Translations under genes and position numbers: made by a program | DNA from: a virus | DNA length: 22,029 nucleotides | IMG/VR virus record: IMGVR_UViG_3300032238_000471 | Coordinates: 1 to 22,029 of that record | Direction: 5' to 3' (one strand) | Notes under the pieces: generated by a model | Databases searched by the model: none | What the model saw: the letters and a program-made list of their open reading frames with translations, nothing else | Told to the model about the DNA's origin: nothing | Shown here: piece by piece, positions 7,844 to 14,705 of the stretch | How positions within the stretch are numbered: position 1 is the stretch's first letter | Layout of the letters: each line of letters begins with the position of its first letter

Positions 7844-7945
7844 ACACTTTACTCCCGTGAAAACCAACTTTTGGCGAAGAGGGCTTGGCGCGGGATGATA
7901 AACGGTGGGGCGCGACATCGAGATCAACGCGCAACACTATACACT
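7844..7945. promoter_or_regulatory. Leader of helicase-methyltransferase gene
   Basis: This 102-nt gap separates the SSB-like gene from the fusion gene. It contains TTGGCG at 7871 and 7885, with TGATAA at 7896-7901. The spacers are 19 and 5 nt respectively, so no convincing promoter results. The stretch just before the start reads CACTATACACTATG. There is no SD before ATG 7946. A gene of distinct composition carrying its own leader would fit a moron-like insertion, but a promoter is not proven. Confidence 0.2.
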
Positions 7946-10141
7946 ATGAATATGACTTACGACGAATATATCACAAGCAAACGAAAGATTGCGAAATCAT
8001 GTGGGTTTGATCCCCTACCGTTCATTGCTCCTCTTTTTGAATGGCAAAAACAGATTGTATCATGGGCTGTAAAAAAAGGACGTGCCGCGTTGTTTGAGGA
8101 TTGCGGTCTTGGTAAGACTGCACAGCAATTAGAATGGGCATCGCAGGTTTTTAGAAAAACAGGAGGGAGCATTTTAATTCTCACTCCACTGGCGGTTGCA
8201 TCTCAAACCGTTAGAGAAGCAGAAAAGTTTGGAATTGAAGCTAAACAAGCATCATCTGACGATGACATTTCAACCTCTGGAATTTGGATTACAAACTATG
8301 AAAAACTAGAGCACTTTGATTGCTCGCAGTTTGCTGGAGTCGTTTTGGATGAGTCATCTATTCTTAAAGCGTTTACAGGGAAAACTAGAATCGCACTTAC
8401 AAACGCATTCTCTGAAACTCCATATAGGCTTTGCTGCACTGCTACACCTTCACCAAATGACTACACCGAGTTAGGGCAGCACGCTGAGTTTTTGGGCATT
8501 TGCAGCCCGGCTCAAATGCTCGCCACGTTCTTTGTGAATGACACGTTCAACACTGGCGATTGGCGTCTAAAGAAACACGCCGAATCAGAGTTCTGGAAGT
8601 GGCTTGCAAGTTGGGCGGCTTGCGTTTCCAAACCGAGTGATATTGGGTTTGATGATTCAGACTACATTTTACCATCGTTAAACATGCAGACAATCCTCGT
8701 GGATTCTGACGAGTCCGTTGACACAGGGGAAGATTTATTCCGAATTGCGACTCTTTCAGCAACCACCATGCATCGTGAAATGCGAATTACTTCCCCAGCC
8801 CGATGCGATGCTGTTGCTGCGATTGTAAATCAATCTCACGAATCGTGGATTGTTTGGTGTAATACGAATGATGAAGCAGATGGATTGATTGAACGAATTC
8901 CAGACGCGGTTGAAGTTCGAGGGTCAGATTCATCTGATAAAAAACAAAGGATTCTTTCTGATTTTAGTGAAGGACGAGCACGAGTCATTATCACAAAACC
9001 AAGTATTGCCGGATTTGGCTTAAATTGGCAGCACTGTCGAAATGTGGCGTTCGTGGGACTTTCCTATTCCTTCGAGGATTTTTACCAAGCACTCAGGAGA
9101 TCATACCGTTTCGGACAAAAGCAGCAGGTGAACGGATTTATCGTTCAGGCAAAAACAGAAGGCGCAATTCTCAGATCGATTGAACGCAAAATTGAACAAC
9201 ACAAGAAAATGCAACAGAACATGACACTCGCAGCAAAAGAACTTACTTTCTCTGATAGAGAAGACATTTTAGCAAAAACGGACATCACAACGTACACTGG
9301 AAAAGATTGGACAGTGCACCACGGAGACTGTGTGAGAGTAGCCAAACAAATACCTGATCACAGTATTGGATTCAGTGTTTTCTCCCCTCCCTTTGCCGAT
9401 CTGTTTACATATTCAAATGATCCTCAAGACATGGGGAATTGTGACAATATGCAAGAGTTCATGGTGCATTTTGATCACTTAATTGCAGAGTTGAAACGCA
9501 TCATAAAACCGGGTCGCGAGGTTGCGGTTCACTGTGTCGATCTGATTGCCACTAAATGGAAACATGGGGCAATTCAATTCCAAGATTTTAGCGGTGAAAT
9601 CATTCGCGCATTTTGGAAGCATGACTTTCTCTTTCATTCGAGAATTTGCATTTGGAAATCACCAGTCACGGAAATGCAGAGGACAAAGGCTCACGGGTTG
9701 CTCCATAAAACTTTACGAAAGAATTCAGCGGATTCTCGCGTCGGGTGTGCTGATTATCTTTTGGCGTTTCGCGCTCCGGGGCAAACAACTGATCCAGTCG
9801 TGAAAGATGGGTCTGAGTTTCCGGTTAGTTGGTGGCAAGAGGTCGCTTCTCCAGTCTGGATGACGGTTGATCAAGGTCGCGTTTTAAATGGTGAGGTTGC
9901 CAGAGAAAACGCAGACGAAAAGCATATCTGCCCTTTGCAACTTGATGTCATTGAAAGAGCCATCACTCTTTGGAGCAATCCCGGCGATTTGGTTTATTCT
10001 CCATTTACGGGAATTGGATCGGAAGGATACGGAGCTTTGACACTTGGACGCAAGTTTGTTGGAAGCGAATTAAAGAAGTCTTACGCAGAATGGGCCGTTG
10101 CTAATCTGAACAAGATCGAAGCTCAACCGACGCTTTTTTGA
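7946..10141 (+). CDS. SF2 helicase fused to DNA methyltransferase
   Basis: The 731-residue protein has two enzymatic halves. Residues ~30-420 are a SNF2/SF2 helicase-type ATPase: EDCGLGKT (51-58, Walker A), LDESS (134-138, DExx box), TATPSPND (165-172) and QALRRSYRFGQ (381-391, motif VI). Residues ~450-725 are a beta-class N4-cytosine/N6-adenine methyltransferase: SPPF at 480-483 is the catalytic motif, and YSPFTGIGSEG (684-694) the AdoMet-binding motif. The C terminus is QPTLF, a clamp-binding-like tail. The frame is open upstream to TTG 7871, but ATG 7946 (or 7952) is preferred because the preceding residues look non-coding. Codons are A/T-rich compared with the next gene: by hand 23 of 60 bases at 9181-9240 are G or C, against 38 of 60 at 10561-10620. 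This suggests separate acquisition. Likely role: modification of phage DNA against host restriction. Confidence 0.88.
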   Translation: MNMTYDEYITSKRKIAKSCGFDPLPFIAPLFEWQKQIVSWAVKKGRAALFEDCGLGKTAQQLEWASQVFRKTGGSILILTPLAVASQTVREAEKFGIEAKQASSDDDISTSGIWITNYEKLEHFDCSQFAGVVLDESSILKAFTGKTRIALTNAFSETPYRLCCTATPSPNDYTELGQHAEFLGICSPAQMLATFFVNDTFNTGDWRLKKHAESEFWKWLASWAACVSKPSDIGFDDSDYILPSLNMQTILVDSDESVDTGEDLFRIATLSATTMHREMRITSPARCDAVAAIVNQSHESWIVWCNTNDEADGLIERIPDAVEVRGSDSSDKKQRILSDFSEGRARVIITKPSIAGFGLNWQHCRNVAFVGLSYSFEDFYQALRRSYRFGQKQQVNGFIVQAKTEGAILRSIERKIEQHKKMQQNMTLAAKELTFSDREDILAKTDITTYTGKDWTVHHGDCVRVAKQIPDHSIGFSVFSPPFADLFTYSNDPQDMGNCDNMQEFMVHFDHLIAELKRIIKPGREVAVHCVDLIATKWKHGAIQFQDFSGEIIRAFWKHDFLFHSRICIWKSPVTEMQRTKAHGLLHKTLRKNSADSRVGCADYLLAFRAPGQTTDPVVKDGSEFPVSWWQEVASPVWMTVDQGRVLNGEVARENADEKHICPLQLDVIERAITLWSNPGDLVYSPFTGIGSEGYGALTLGRKFVGSELKKSYAEWAVANLNKIEAQPTLF

Positions 10142-11547
10142 TGAAACTCCGCCCGTATCAACACGCCGCAATCGCCGGTGTCAGGGAAGCATTCCGCGCT
10201 GGAAAGCGTCGCGTACTGCTCGTGGCGCCGACTGGCGCTGGTAAAACGGTAATGTTTAGTTACCTTAGCGGATCATTGCTGCGTAACGGGCACAACGTGC
10301 TTCTAATGGCGCACAGAGACGAGCTGCTGGATCAGATCAGCCGCACGCTTCAGCAATTTGATGTACCGCATGGATTTATTGCCGCTCGCCGTCAGCTAAT
10401 GCTCAGGCATAAAGTTCAGGTCGCAGGCGTCCACACGCTTAAAAATAGATGTGCGACGCTGCGGTGGAAACCTGATTGGATCATCTGCGACGAGGCCCAT
10501 CACGCGACCGCCGGGAGTTGGGCGACGATCATTAAAGCCTATCCCGGGGCGAAAATCATTGGCGTCACCGCGACACCCTGCCGACTGGATGGCCGAGGGC
10601 TTGGCAATGTATTTGACGAGATGGTGATCGGTCCTCAGGTTGCAGATCTCATTCGTGATGGGTACCTGTCTCGTATCAAATACTTTTGCCCAGCCACCGT
10701 GGACACGAGCGGGCTTAAAAAACGCATGGGCGATTTCAGGGCCAACGAGATCAACGATGCCGTAAACATTCCTCGCGTAACAGGTGAGGCCGTCGAATAT
10801 TACCGCAAGCTCTGCGACGGTCAGCCTGCCGTGGCATTCTGCGCCTCCATCAAACATTCAGAGCACGTTGCAGAGACCTTCCGAGCCGCTGGCTATTGTT
10901 GGCAATCTTTGGACTCAAGGATGACTCCAGAGGCACGCAGGGATGCCGTTATCGGGCTGGGCAACGGATCGCTGCACGGCATCAGCTCATGCGACATCAT
11001 CAGCGAGGGATTCGACCTACCAATCGTCAGTGCCGCGATCTTGCTGCGTCCTACTGCATCGCTGAGTCTATTCCTCCAGCAGGTGGGGCGCGTGCTGCGA
11101 ATTGCTCCTGGAAAAACACATGCGACCATCATCGACCACGTCGGAAACGTAGGCTCGATGCGGGCTGGCGAATGGGTAGAGCGGCACGGATTTGCCGAGG
11201 ACGTGCGCGAGTGGTCGCTGGAGGGCCGCGTTAAACGCGCCAAGGGGGCTAGCGTGTCGCTGTGTGAAAACTGTTTTGCCATCATGCCGATTGGGGCGCG
11301 GGAATGCTCCGAATGCGGCTGGCAACGCCCAGAGAAACAGGCACGGTTTGATGAGTCGACATCAGACGTTGAGTTAAAACAGGTGGACGTTGAAAGGGCT
11401 AAGGCTGCGCTGAACAGGTCTATCAAGTCGGCGCGATCACTGGAGGATTTGCAAAAAATAGCTAGAAAACAGGGATACGCTCAGGGATGGGCATGGCATC
11501 GCTGGAATGCTCGGACGAAAAAGCAGACGACGTACAAGATTAAATGA
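10141..11547 (+). CDS. RadD-like DEAH-box helicase
   Basis: This is a 468-residue SF2 helicase. Visible motifs are the RPYQ Q-motif-like start, APTGAGKT (29-36), DEAH (117-120), TATP (143-146), EGFDLP (289-294) and QQVGRVLR (313-320). A C-terminal zinc-ribbon, C375-x2-C378 and C389-x2-C392, follows the helicase lobes. DEAH helicase plus C-terminal four-Cys element is the layout of RadD and its phage relatives, which act in DNA repair and branched-DNA processing. The ATG overlaps the previous stop in TGATG; a TTG one codon earlier is not needed. It ends in an ATGA overlap with a VRR-NUC gene, which suggests the two work on the same branched substrates. Confidence 0.85.
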   Translation: MKLRPYQHAAIAGVREAFRAGKRRVLLVAPTGAGKTVMFSYLSGSLLRNGHNVLLMAHRDELLDQISRTLQQFDVPHGFIAARRQLMLRHKVQVAGVHTLKNRCATLRWKPDWIICDEAHHATAGSWATIIKAYPGAKIIGVTATPCRLDGRGLGNVFDEMVIGPQVADLIRDGYLSRIKYFCPATVDTSGLKKRMGDFRANEINDAVNIPRVTGEAVEYYRKLCDGQPAVAFCASIKHSEHVAETFRAAGYCWQSLDSRMTPEARRDAVIGLGNGSLHGISSCDIISEGFDLPIVSAAILLRPTASLSLFLQQVGRVLRIAPGKTHATIIDHVGNVGSMRAGEWVERHGFAEDVREWSLEGRVKRAKGASVSLCENCFAIMPIGARECSECGWQRPEKQARFDESTSDVELKQVDVERAKAALNRSIKSARSLEDLQKIARKQGYAQGWAWHRWNARTKKQTTYKIK

Positions 11548-11858
11548 CCGAATCCGAAATTCAATCTGCCATCCACCGCTCCATCGGATCTCGTCCTGAC
11601 TGTCGCCTGTTTCGTAATCATACTGGCAAGGTTCAGGACCGCTCTGGCCGATGGCACACGTTCGGTCTGGCAACTGGCAGCGCGGATCTCATCGGATGGT
11701 GCCGAGGACGTTTCCTTTCCATCGAGGTCAAATCTGCGACAGGTCGCGTTAGGCCCGAACAGGTTGCGTGGATGGAAACGGTTAACAGGCATGGAGGCAT
11801 CGCCTTCGTCGCTCGGTCAGTGGAGGAAGCTAACGAACTACTAAATCAACACTTATGA
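11544..11858 (+). CDS. VRR-NUC domain nuclease
   Basis: The 104-residue protein is a stand-alone VRR-NUC (PD-(D/E)XK) nuclease. GSADLIG holds the catalytic D48, and FLSIEVKSATGRVRPEQ holds E61-V-K63, followed by a conserved Gln (Q73). An early RNHTGKV segment is also typical of this family. Related proteins are structure-specific nucleases, and phage stand-alone versions cut branched or Holliday-junction-like DNA. Both ends are ATGA overlaps, with the RadD-like helicase before and the primase after, so it is an integral part of the replication operon. It would likely resolve recombination intermediates before packaging. Confidence 0.85.
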   Translation: MTESEIQSAIHRSIGSRPDCRLFRNHTGKVQDRSGRWHTFGLATGSADLIGWCRGRFLSIEVKSATGRVRPEQVAWMETVNRHGGIAFVARSVEEANELLNQHL

Positions 11859-14029
11859 CAATTAACTTTGACAAACTAAACGAATCACTGCTCAGCAACT
11901 ACCTCAGCATTCTCCAGCAGTGGCTGCCTAATGGGCGCAAAATCGGCCCTGACTGGTGCGTTGGTTCACTAACCGGTGAAGCTGGCAAATCGCTGAAAAT
12001 CCACGTTCGCAAAGGCGTTTGGAAGGATTTTGCCAGTGGAGACGGTGGTTCGGATCCGATATCGCTCTACGCCGCTATTCTTGGCGTTTCACAGGGAGAA
12101 GCCGCTCGCCGGCTTAATGGTTTCCAATCAAAACCGAATGCTCCCATTTCGGATGGCACAGAATTTGAACCCGTGCTCGATCCCCCCGACGACATGCCAG
12201 ATCCGCAGGTCGGGGAGTTCTCAGCCCGGTACGATTACTTGTCAGCCTCGGGCAACCTTTTAGGTATCGTAACACGTCAGGACAAATCCGACGGCAGCAA
12301 AACCATCCACCCGCGGACGCCGTGGTACGATTCAGAGGGCCGGATCATCTGGCGATGGAAGGGCTTCCAGACCCCACGTCCTCTGTACGGACTCAATCAA
12401 CTCGCCAAGCGTCCCGATGCTGTGGTGGTAGTGGTGGAGGGGGAAAAGTGCGCCGATGCGCTCAGTGTGCTCGACTCCTCCACGCCTGTTGTCACGTGGT
12501 GCGGCGGATCCAACGCCGTCCGATCGGCAAACTGGCAACCGCTGGCAGGTCGTAGGGTTGTCCTGTGGCCGGACGCTGACGAGCCTGGGCGCAAAGCCAT
12601 GGCTGACGTCGCCGAGGCGCTTGGGAAACTGAAAGCCGAGGTGAAACTCGTGGATGCGCCTGCCGATTCCCCTCAGGGCTGGGATTGCGCCGACGCTATT
12701 GCAGAGGGGTGGACCCTCGAGCGTTGTCACAGCCTGCTGGCATCTGCTCGGAGAGTATCATCTGATCCCGTCGTGCTGGCTCGGGTAACAACCACCACAA
12801 CCGCAACTCGGACCCCAGAGGCCGACGTGGTGCAGCGTGTCGAGGTTCGCGACGAGTTTCTCCCACCGTCCGCACCAGAGATGGCGCAATACGGTCTTCA
12901 GATGGGCGCTGGGGGGAAATACATACCGGCCCTCGATTCGCTGTGCCGAATTATGGAGCTCCACAGCTACTGGCGCGGACATATCTGGTGGGATTCATTC
13001 CTTGAACGGGTACTAACCGACCTACACGGGCCGGTTGAACCGTGGACCGATCATCATTCCTCTCGTGCGACCCGTTGGGTTCAGTCCGTGTTTGAGATGC
13101 CGACAACCTCCACGGATCGCATCCATGAGGCCGCGATGACCGTGGCCCGCGAAAACCCCAGGAACTGCCTTACACACTGGCTCGGCACGCTACAGTGGGA
13201 TGGTGTAGCGAGGATGGCGGATTTGCTGCCGACAGGGTTTGGAACTGCCAAGGACGCATACCATGTCCGGGTTGGGGAATGTTGGATCCTGTCACTGGTG
13301 GCACGAGCATTTTCCCCAGGCTGCAAGGTGGACACGATGCCAGTCTTCGAGGGATCTCAGGGGGCCGGCAAATCGTCCGCGCTGGCAATTCTAGGGGGCG
13401 AATGGTTCGGCGAATGCCACGAGGACTTCGGATCCAAGGATTTCGTCCTGTCACTGAAAGGCAAATGGATTATCGAAGTTGCTGAAATGCATAGTTTTAA
13501 GCGACAGGACGTGGACAGGCTGAAGGGCATTATGAGCACCAGAGTGGACCGCGTCCGAGTCCCCTACGGCCGAATGACTGAGGAGCACCCGAGGCAGTCA
13601 GTGTTTGCCGGCACTACTAACCGCGACGACTGGCAGCAGGACGACACCGGCGCACGCCGCTTCTGGGCAGTGCGGTGCGGGTTTCTGAAGCTGGACTGGC
13701 TACAAGACAACCGAGAGCAATTATTTGCCGAAGCTGTGAGCCGATTTAAAGGCGATGAGGACTGGTGGAGCATCCCGCTGGCCGACGCCGCCCGCGCTGC
13801 CGATGAACGCCGGCCTGAGGATCCGTGGGAGGAGATTTTAGAGCGTCACCTGATTGACGGGCAGGTTTACTCATCGCGGGAGCTTCTCGGTCACCCGTTG
13901 GATATTGAGATGGAAAATCAATCGCAGCAAGCTGCCGCACGCGTCGGACGGATTCTTAGAAAACTTGGCTGGGAGTCGTTTGTGAGGCGCGAAGGCGAAG
14001 GAACTCGTAAACTCTGGAGGAAAGTGTAG
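11855..14029 (+). CDS. TOPRIM primase fused to VirE-type helicase
   Basis: The 724-residue protein is the probable replication initiator enzyme. Residues ~180-300 form a TOPRIM domain: VVVVEGEKCADAL with E195 and E197, then LWPDADEPG with D240 and D242. Residues ~355-690 match the virulence-associated-E/D5-like helicase family: EGSQGAGKSSAL (Walker A, ~499-510), WIIEVAEMHSF (Walker B region, ~539-548), GTTNRDDW (~586-593) and GARRFW (~599-604). The N-terminal ~100 residues include VWKDFASGDGGSDPISLYAA, as seen before TOPRIM in phage primases. The Pro/Thr-rich stretch ~300-335 is a linker. It would prime and unwind phage DNA. The candidate origin lies directly downstream, a common arrangement for phage initiators. 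Confidence 0.88.
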   Translation: MTINFDKLNESLLSNYLSILQQWLPNGRKIGPDWCVGSLTGEAGKSLKIHVRKGVWKDFASGDGGSDPISLYAAILGVSQGEAARRLNGFQSKPNAPISDGTEFEPVLDPPDDMPDPQVGEFSARYDYLSASGNLLGIVTRQDKSDGSKTIHPRTPWYDSEGRIIWRWKGFQTPRPLYGLNQLAKRPDAVVVVVEGEKCADALSVLDSSTPVVTWCGGSNAVRSANWQPLAGRRVVLWPDADEPGRKAMADVAEALGKLKAEVKLVDAPADSPQGWDCADAIAEGWTLERCHSLLASARRVSSDPVVLARVTTTTTATRTPEADVVQRVEVRDEFLPPSAPEMAQYGLQMGAGGKYIPALDSLCRIMELHSYWRGHIWWDSFLERVLTDLHGPVEPWTDHHSSRATRWVQSVFEMPTTSTDRIHEAAMTVARENPRNCLTHWLGTLQWDGVARMADLLPTGFGTAKDAYHVRVGECWILSLVARAFSPGCKVDTMPVFEGSQGAGKSSALAILGGEWFGECHEDFGSKDFVLSLKGKWIIEVAEMHSFKRQDVDRLKGIMSTRVDRVRVPYGRMTEEHPRQSVFAGTTNRDDWQQDDTGARRFWAVRCGFLKLDWLQDNREQLFAEAVSRFKGDEDWWSIPLADAARAADERRPEDPWEEILERHLIDGQVYSSRELLGHPLDIEMENQSQQAAARVGRILRKLGWESFVRREGEGTRKLWRKV

Positions 14030-14084
14030 GTTACCGTTGCGTTTCCGATTAAAGTTTCCGCGCAAGTGCCTTGTTTTAAGGTAC

Positions 14085-14102
14085 GTTACCTATGTTACCT
14101 AT
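14085..14102. repeat. Tandem 9-bp repeat GTTACCTAT
   Basis: Two perfect abutting copies of GTTACCTAT (14085-14093 and 14094-14102) run directly into the A+T core. A third GTTACC is at 14030, just after the primase stop. They are the best-preserved members of the left-hand box array and may bind the primase/helicase or another initiator. Confidence 0.8.
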
Positions 14103-14136
14103 AATATTACTTATAATATATATTATATATAGTATA
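14100..14136. other. A+T core with 16-bp palindrome
   Basis: 35 of these 37 bases are A or T. TATAATATATATTATA at 14112-14127 is a perfect palindrome. TATAAT also occurs at 14100-14105, so a promoter -10 is possible, but no matched -35 is seen. Position between two oppositely oriented box arrays fits a DNA-unwinding element. Confidence 0.6.
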
Positions 14137-14177
14137 GGGGAAATGGGGGGCGCGCGAGAAACGCGTAGGCCTTATAG

Positions 14178-14217
14178 GGAAACGTCGAAAACACGGAAAC
14201 TTCGGAAACGCGGAAAC
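14178..14217. repeat. GGAAAC box array
   Basis: Four exact GGAAAC copies lie at 14178, 14195, 14204 and 14212, three of them as CGGAAAC (14194, 14203, 14211). Start-to-start spacing is 17, 9 and 8 nt. Looser GAAAC or GAAAAC versions continue to both sides (14156, 14187, 14247, 14268, 14276). This is the right-hand array of the candidate origin. Confidence 0.7.
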
Positions 14218-14281
14218 ATTTACTCTGTTGAGGCTGTTTCCACTAAAGAAACGTCAAAAACAAACCGAAAACACTGAAACT

Positions 14282-14485
14282 ATGGAAACACACGAAGGGG
14301 TTTTGCTCGGCCCCGACAACAAACTTGAGCTAATTGGCATAACGGTAGAGATTACGCACGAAACCATTAAAGCCTGGCGCGGTCCAGAGCTTTTGCATGT
14401 CCAGTCGCTTAAATCGGCGTGGATTACTGGCGCGCCTGGCAAACGGCACTGGCCCATTGGCAACGGGAGGACTGTCGTATGGTAA
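14282..14485 (+). CDS. Small hypothetical protein
   Basis: The 67-residue protein starts at ATG 14282. An upstream ATG at 14228 lies within the repeat region and would add a low-complexity leader, so the later start is preferred. The sequence (LLGPDNKLELIGITVEITHE, then IKAWRGPELLHVQSLKSAWI) alternates short hydrophobic strands and polar turns and looks like a small soluble beta-rich protein. It overlaps the next gene by 7 nt. No SD and no recognised family. It is the first of a run of microprotein genes between the origin and the packaging genes. Confidence 0.55.
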   Translation: METHEGVLLGPDNKLELIGITVEITHETIKAWRGPELLHVQSLKSAWITGAPGKRHWPIGNGRTVVW

Positions 14486-14646
14486 CCGTGCTCACCTACG
14501 CCGTGGAATGCGATTTTCGACCATATCAGCAATGGATTGTCGAAGCTGAGTCCGAGTCAGAAGCTCGGTTGATGGTCGCCCAGATGCTGGGTGTTCCGTT
14601 TGAGGAGACTGATGCGGCAATTAAACGCGAACAAAACACGCAATAA
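14479..14646 (+). CDS. Small hypothetical protein
   Basis: This is a 55-residue protein. ATG 14479 is chosen over ATG 14419 because GGGAGG at 14465-14470 is a good SD eight bases upstream. Residues 1-25 resemble one beta strand with polar turns (MVTVLTYAVECDFRPYQQWI). They are followed by an acidic helix with the pattern ESESEARLMVAQMLGVPFEE. The fold resembles small phage proteins with a beta-alpha unit, but no family is assigned. The last codons lie about 10 nt before the first of three repeated TTGAACA-type boxes. Confidence 0.6.
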   Translation: MVTVLTYAVECDFRPYQQWIVEAESESEARLMVAQMLGVPFEETDAAIKREQNTQ

Positions 14647-14655
14647 CACGCATTT

Positions 14656-14705
14656 TGTTCAAATCCACAGAGTAAAATTGAACACAAACACAGAAGAATT
14701 GAACA
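14656..14705. promoter_or_regulatory. Three phased TTGAACA boxes before gene 14705
   Basis: TGTTCAA (14656-14662, inverted) and TTGAACA (14678-14684 and 14699-14705) have centres 22 and 21 nt apart, i.e. about two helical turns. The last two extend to AATTGAACA. TAAAAT at 14673-14678 is a good -10 candidate lying between and partly under the boxes, but no convincing -35 is seen. The third box reaches the A of the ATG at 14705. A protein bound on one DNA face here could control the microprotein genes. It may also be chance in A-rich DNA. Confidence 0.35.

Follow-up and report, generated by a model that had tools for sequence, protein, structure and literature searches.

Satellite elements of the SaPI and PICI kind, together with SCC relatives, carry the closest described counterparts of the locus analyzed here. 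In their pri-rep-ori module, the gene for a VapE/D5-type primase-helicase is followed by two opposed sets of iterons with an A+T-rich stretch (PMC6092414). Maintenance was observed for plasmids that carried rep and ori of the PICI EcCICFT073 but not for plasmids lacking rep, and fewer colonies grew once ori had been deleted (PMC6092414). The SaPI primases named in a second study are archaeo-eukaryotic (PMC7581432).

SaPI Rep has been reported to bind as two hexamers. In phage P4, the primase-helicase alpha binds type I iterons of the ori-crr system, in which crr is separate.

Here we analyze a stretch of viral DNA of 22,029 nucleotides, IMG/VR record IMGVR_UViG_3300032238_000471, referred to below as the window. 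This 22-kb record encodes a GpA-type large terminase, a lambda-type portal, an S49/ClpP-type head protease and a major head protein and, to judge from these genes, represents all or part of a tailed phage. We conclude that the gap after its primase-helicase gene is almost certainly a start site of DNA copying.

Results

A mirrored box array behind the primase-helicase gene

Eleven GTTWCC/GGAAAC boxes lie within 260 nt (14030–14289), between the stop codon of the primase-helicase gene and the gene that comes after it, whose likely ATG is at 14282. An initial annotation of the sequence had proposed a replication origin here on the basis of ten boxes, all of which are present at the positions it gave. 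On the left, every box is on the plus strand: three outer boxes (14030–14059; GTTACC at 14030, GTTTCC at 14041 and 14054) precede an inner pair (14085–14099; GTTACC at 14085 and 14094) with a 9-bp step. On the right, minus-strand GGAAAC boxes at 14178, 14195, 14204 and 14212 form the inner array (14178–14217), which a degenerate box at 14187 (GAAAAC) completes to five boxes in steps of 9, 8, 9 and 8 bp. They are followed by a lone reversed GTTTCC box on the plus strand (14236–14241) and an outer GGAAAC box on the minus strand (14284–14289); one-mismatch boxes are also found at 14247, 14267 and 14275. The box at 14236 is the sixth on the right and the one on the other strand, in agreement with the annotation that five of six right boxes oppose the left ones. 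The two sides differ in box orientation (5:0 left, 1:5 right; Fisher p = 0.015), and the overall order is >>>>>|<<<<><, with halves that are not identical (5 and 6 boxes).

The first box abuts the stop codon, which places the block directly 3' of the primase-helicase gene as annotated, and the last overlaps the likely ATG of the next gene; the entire intergenic space is therefore filled by boxes. That gene (14282–14485, plus strand, 67 aa from the ATG), which would form the right-hand boundary of the origin, matched no known family when its protein was scanned in a longer TTG form (14228–14485). The clustering is pronounced: the remainder of the window has 0.31 boxes per 260 nt, compared with 11 here (Poisson tail approximately 5e-14, before correction for about 85 windows), so a similar density is not seen elsewhere. 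Dinucleotide shuffling of the region (5,000 replicates, mean 0.6) never produced as many boxes, and no second box array was found within the window. An open reading frame at 14092–14277 was rejected as coding; it matched no family and is composed of the box repeats.

The inner arrays enclose a core of 78 bp (14100–14177), with an A+T part at 14100–14136 followed by a G+C-rich part containing GCGCGCG. The A+T part, described previously as a 37-nt core, is 35/37 A+T, the highest of any 37-mer in the window, and the least stable 40-mer of the window begins at 14098. A 16-bp palindrome at 14112–14127 had also been pointed out; it is perfect, but one as long arises in 30.5% of core shuffles, and we reject it as a functional element because it matches chance expectation. 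GC skew was likewise discarded as an origin marker. It does not switch at the box region of the window, and of four longer relatives three show no switch either, while the remaining one has the site at its contig end. No DnaA box (TTWTNCACA, up to one mismatch) is present in 14030–14290, and no Rfam RNA element matched in the region.

The upstream gene encodes a VapE-type primase-helicase

The gene that ends at the array (11855–14029, plus strand) encodes a 724-aa protein with a DnaG-like N-terminal region containing a Toprim domain, a VapE-type AAA+ helicase and a predicted C-terminal winged helix. Pfam matches were to PF05272 (VapE-like helicase, 4e-69) and PF13362 (Toprim_3, 4e-6). Comparison with 7pds_A gave 1.9e-37 with phmmer and 4.6e-85 with a profile. 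The AlphaFold (AF2) model, built from a 54-sequence alignment, has a mean pLDDT of 90; its best Foldseek match is 7pds_C, PriRep1 with dsDNA (E 2.6e-26), and 7ola, the SaPI5 primase-helicase, is also among the structural matches. The window therefore has, by PF05272 and by likeness to 7pds in both sequence and fold, what the SaPI/PICI module has directly upstream of its iterons: a VapE/D5-type helicase gene, often primase-fused. In the secondary structure of the model, the winged helix spans residues 657–723 (encoded at 13823–14023, plus strand), with helices at 657–665, 674–679 and 691–703 and a beta hairpin at 706–713/716–723.

Genes for a DEAD/ResIII helicase and a VRR-NUC nuclease precede VapE in the window (10138–14029); in Bacteroides F2, Corynebacterium CL31 and Listeria LWP01 (L103, L104 and L105), they come after VapE and the array. 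Further upstream, a single 756-aa frame (7871–10141) fuses an SNF2-type helicase half to a DNA methylase half (N6_N4_Mtase).

Mirrored arrays recur behind VapE genes

Loci encoding relatives of the window VapE protein were taken from viral contigs and scored with a strict test, which required an identical hexamer in at least two phased copies on one side and at least two inverted copies on the other, around a core of 20–160 bp. Behind VapE, 26/60 viral loci passed, compared with 0/1961 control windows from the same loci and 0/1200 shuffles. In an independent set of loci from bacterial genomes, 12/39 passed compared with 0/980 controls, giving 0/2,941 control windows for both sets pooled. The positives include related loci and do not represent 38 independent events; the iterons nonetheless fall into many different sequences. 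When one degenerate position was allowed, 16/60 loci still failed, which may have degenerate arrays, arrays in another place or none; this relaxed scan also passed 4% of control windows (60/1479) and was left out of the counts. The layout is thus conserved after the primase genes of related phages and replicated in a second collection; the absence of conservation that would have refuted an origin did not arise.

Behind the VapE stop codon, close relatives of the window keep this layout but use different boxes (TGTTTCCGA, TGTAGCCGAT, TGTAACGG, TGTTACCG, TGTTCCGG and GAACCC). Five isolated phages, APSE-1, Marinobacter PS3, Listeria LWP01, Corynebacterium CL31 and Bacteroides F2, resemble the window in having mirrored arrays behind the VapE gene but differ from it in iteron sequence. 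The annotation tables of these stretches list no origin feature, and a literature search on published origins of VapE phages found nothing usable. Two variants of position were noted. Pseudomonas phage LPPA36 has a mirrored CTGTCC array with an alternating core one gene downstream of VapE (L098, 3144–3277), and in L005, L006, L010 and L003 the 3' end of the VapE frame contains the left array, whose translation gives the protein a short repetitive tail.

Boxes that extend to the likely start codon of the next gene might instead be operators, through which VapE or another phage regulator controls the following genes by autoregulation or as a late switch while copying starts elsewhere; iteron arrays often also autoregulate. 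We consider this very improbable. Arrays keep their place behind VapE even though the downstream genes vary from locus to locus, no sigma-70-like promoter match was found within 13700–14700, and an operator has no need of boxes mirrored about an unstable stretch. Moreover, a PICI origin in which the boxes are ordered in a closely similar way is reported to support replication.

Box number, order and spacing recur between loci

Full arrays were read with a per-locus weight matrix. Loci with only 2+2 boxes (L061, L066, L102, L123 and others) are weak positives and were excluded from the analysis of box order. From the outside toward the core, the arrays have two or three boxes, often one reversed box, and two or three inner boxes, followed by the mirror image. 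Orders such as >><>>>|<<<><< and >>><>>|<<<>>< recur among unrelated box sequences. Six is the commonest number of boxes per half in the first set (18/40 left, 16/40 right), with 8/21 left and 7/21 right halves having six in the second, and inner boxes are spaced 9 bp apart in 83/133 steps. Behind the primase-rep gene of EcCICFT073, TCTACC boxes are arranged as >><>>>|<<><<. Compared with this order, the window array fits on its right side but has no reversed box on the left. The reversed box at 14236 sits where many distant relatives and EcCICFT073 have theirs, and it is absent from most of the nearest relatives of the window. Given the recurrence of orders with a reversed box, in EcCICFT073 as well, this apparently wrong-way box would fit the wider plan, although such a fit is not proof.

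The locus could also be an origin of another type, used for theta or strand-displacement copying in one direction or recognized by a host initiator, instead of one at which two VapE hexamers fire both ways. The unequal halves and the missing skew switch are in keeping with this idea, but many lineages maintain the dyad order in both halves, binding of SaPI Rep is reported to involve two hexamers, and the region has no DnaA box; we regard it as unlikely, though far from negligible. For the reading with two VapE hexamers, bidirectional firing is plausible; with no skew switch at the site, we infer it from the dyad.

A+T-rich and alternating cores

Core lengths among the relatives are mostly 67–116 bp, and the cores of the window clade combine one A+T part with one G+C part. 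G+C-rich relatives often have a long, strictly alternating purine-pyrimidine tract of up to 55 nt as their core instead of A+T, and the origin tract is the longest alternating tract of the whole locus in 33/40 G+C-type loci. Perfectly alternating cores of 30–55 nt are found behind VapE in L140, L049, L095, L113, L121, L037 and others. Overall, 92.5% of viral-set cores exceed windows of the same locus in A+T content or in alternation, a pattern that was spotted post hoc in this first set and held up in the second. Alternating purine-pyrimidine tracts can adopt Z-DNA under negative supercoiling, and what the two core types share would be a stretch that yields under supercoiling.

Iterons and the predicted winged helix diverge together

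Where boxes differ, the winged-helix region diverges more than the ATPase. Within the window clade (leaving aside the more distant L009), loci with different iterons are 80–92% identical in the ATPase and 43–64% identical in the C-terminal part, which is 80–92% identical among members with the same iteron (L005/L006/L010 and L002/L018). The sharpest pair is L003 and L019 (iterons GAACCC and TGTTACCG, respectively), with 92% identity in the ATPase, 84% in the N-terminal part and 58% in the winged helix. A partial Mantel test of iteron against winged-helix similarity, given the ATPase, yielded r = 0.25 (p = 0.0005). The reverse partial correlation, of iteron similarity with the ATPase without the winged helix, was also positive (r = 0.21), and shared ancestry is therefore not fully separated from co-evolution. 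We propose that the C-terminal winged helix, as modeled, is the reader of the iterons.

This parallel divergence also bears on the idea that chance has placed a site for partition, packaging or recombination (parS, pac/cos or an enhancer) beside the primase-helicase gene. Repeat arrays mark such sites too, and terminase genes start approximately 2 kb downstream of the box region. Against this idea, the iterons diverge along with the VapE C terminus, arrays follow VapE in distant phages with different downstream genes (in a search that was anchored on VapE), and no partition gene was recognized among the scanned proteins. We give this explanation even less credence than operators.

Discussion

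We consider it highly probable that 14030–14289 is a tailed-phage replication origin of SaPI/PICI type, read by the VapE-type initiator helicase encoded upstream. The origin proposed in the initial annotation is upheld by the recurrence of the layout in relatives, its replication in an independent collection and a closely similar box order behind rep of a PICI with a reported functional origin.

At such an origin, the VapE-type primase-helicase would bind the iterons through its C-terminal winged helix, and two sets of helicase, one per half, would assemble facing each other. The unstable core would then open, the helicase rings would engage the single strands and move off, and the attached DnaG-like primase would lay primers. 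The sequences themselves show clustered boxes in mirrored order behind VapE, a layout that recurs with varied boxes, a more divergent winged-helix region where boxes differ and an unstable core; VapE binding, core melting, the two hexamers and firing in both directions are inferred.

More tentatively, a single VapE-origin plan may extend across tailed phages and satellites, a generalization that we hold as possible but somewhat doubtful. The dyad of about six boxes per half in steps of about 9 bp would be a template for two hexamers; the core would yield under negative supercoiling, as an A+T stretch or, in G+C-rich phages, as a Z-DNA-prone tract; and boxes and winged helix would be re-coded in step, so that every phage has an initiator-origin pair of its own. 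Lineages that each combine their own box with their own winged helix offer a natural experiment on origin finding and opening by a self-loading replicative helicase, and the same set bears on why relatives do not cross-fire. The six boxes per half make it testable whether DNA counts out a double hexamer, and the A+T and alternating cores whether a core works by melting or by absorbing supercoils.

Among known systems, iteron plasmid origins (Rep with DnaA boxes) likewise have their initiator gene next to short repeats and an adjoining A+T-rich region. The window differs in its mirrored arrays on both sides, in an initiator that is itself the helicase and in the lack of a DnaA box, for which a DnaA-dependent iteron plasmid origin was rejected. 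The protein shares its fold with PriRep1 (7pds), solved as six chains with dsDNA, over approximately 440 columns (TM-score 0.70 by target length), but identity is 22% and its N-terminal primase half lies outside the match.

The SaPI/PICI module is similar in that opposed iteron sets stand directly behind a primase-helicase gene, and the window has the two iteron sets flanking an A+T-rich region immediately 3' of rep by which that module is defined (PMC6092414). The order in EcCICFT073 is close to that of distant phage relatives and, apart from the reversed left box, to that of the window. The core, however, is 78 bp in the window, whereas in EcCICFT073 25 bp separate the inner arrays and the main A+T stretch is found farther out, between the inner and the outer boxes. 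The window protein has a primase half of DnaG-like (Toprim) type, in contrast to the archaeo-eukaryotic SaPI primases named above. A PICI is a satellite that needs a helper phage for virion proteins, whereas the carrier here is a tailed phage with its own terminase, portal, head protease and major head protein genes. This kind of origin is known from satellites, and the window adds a phage-borne member; the layout occurs both in tailed phages that encode head proteins of their own and in phage isolates, APSE-1 among them. From the wider comparison come the recurring dyad of six boxes per half, boxes apparently re-coded with the winged helix and two alternative types of core.
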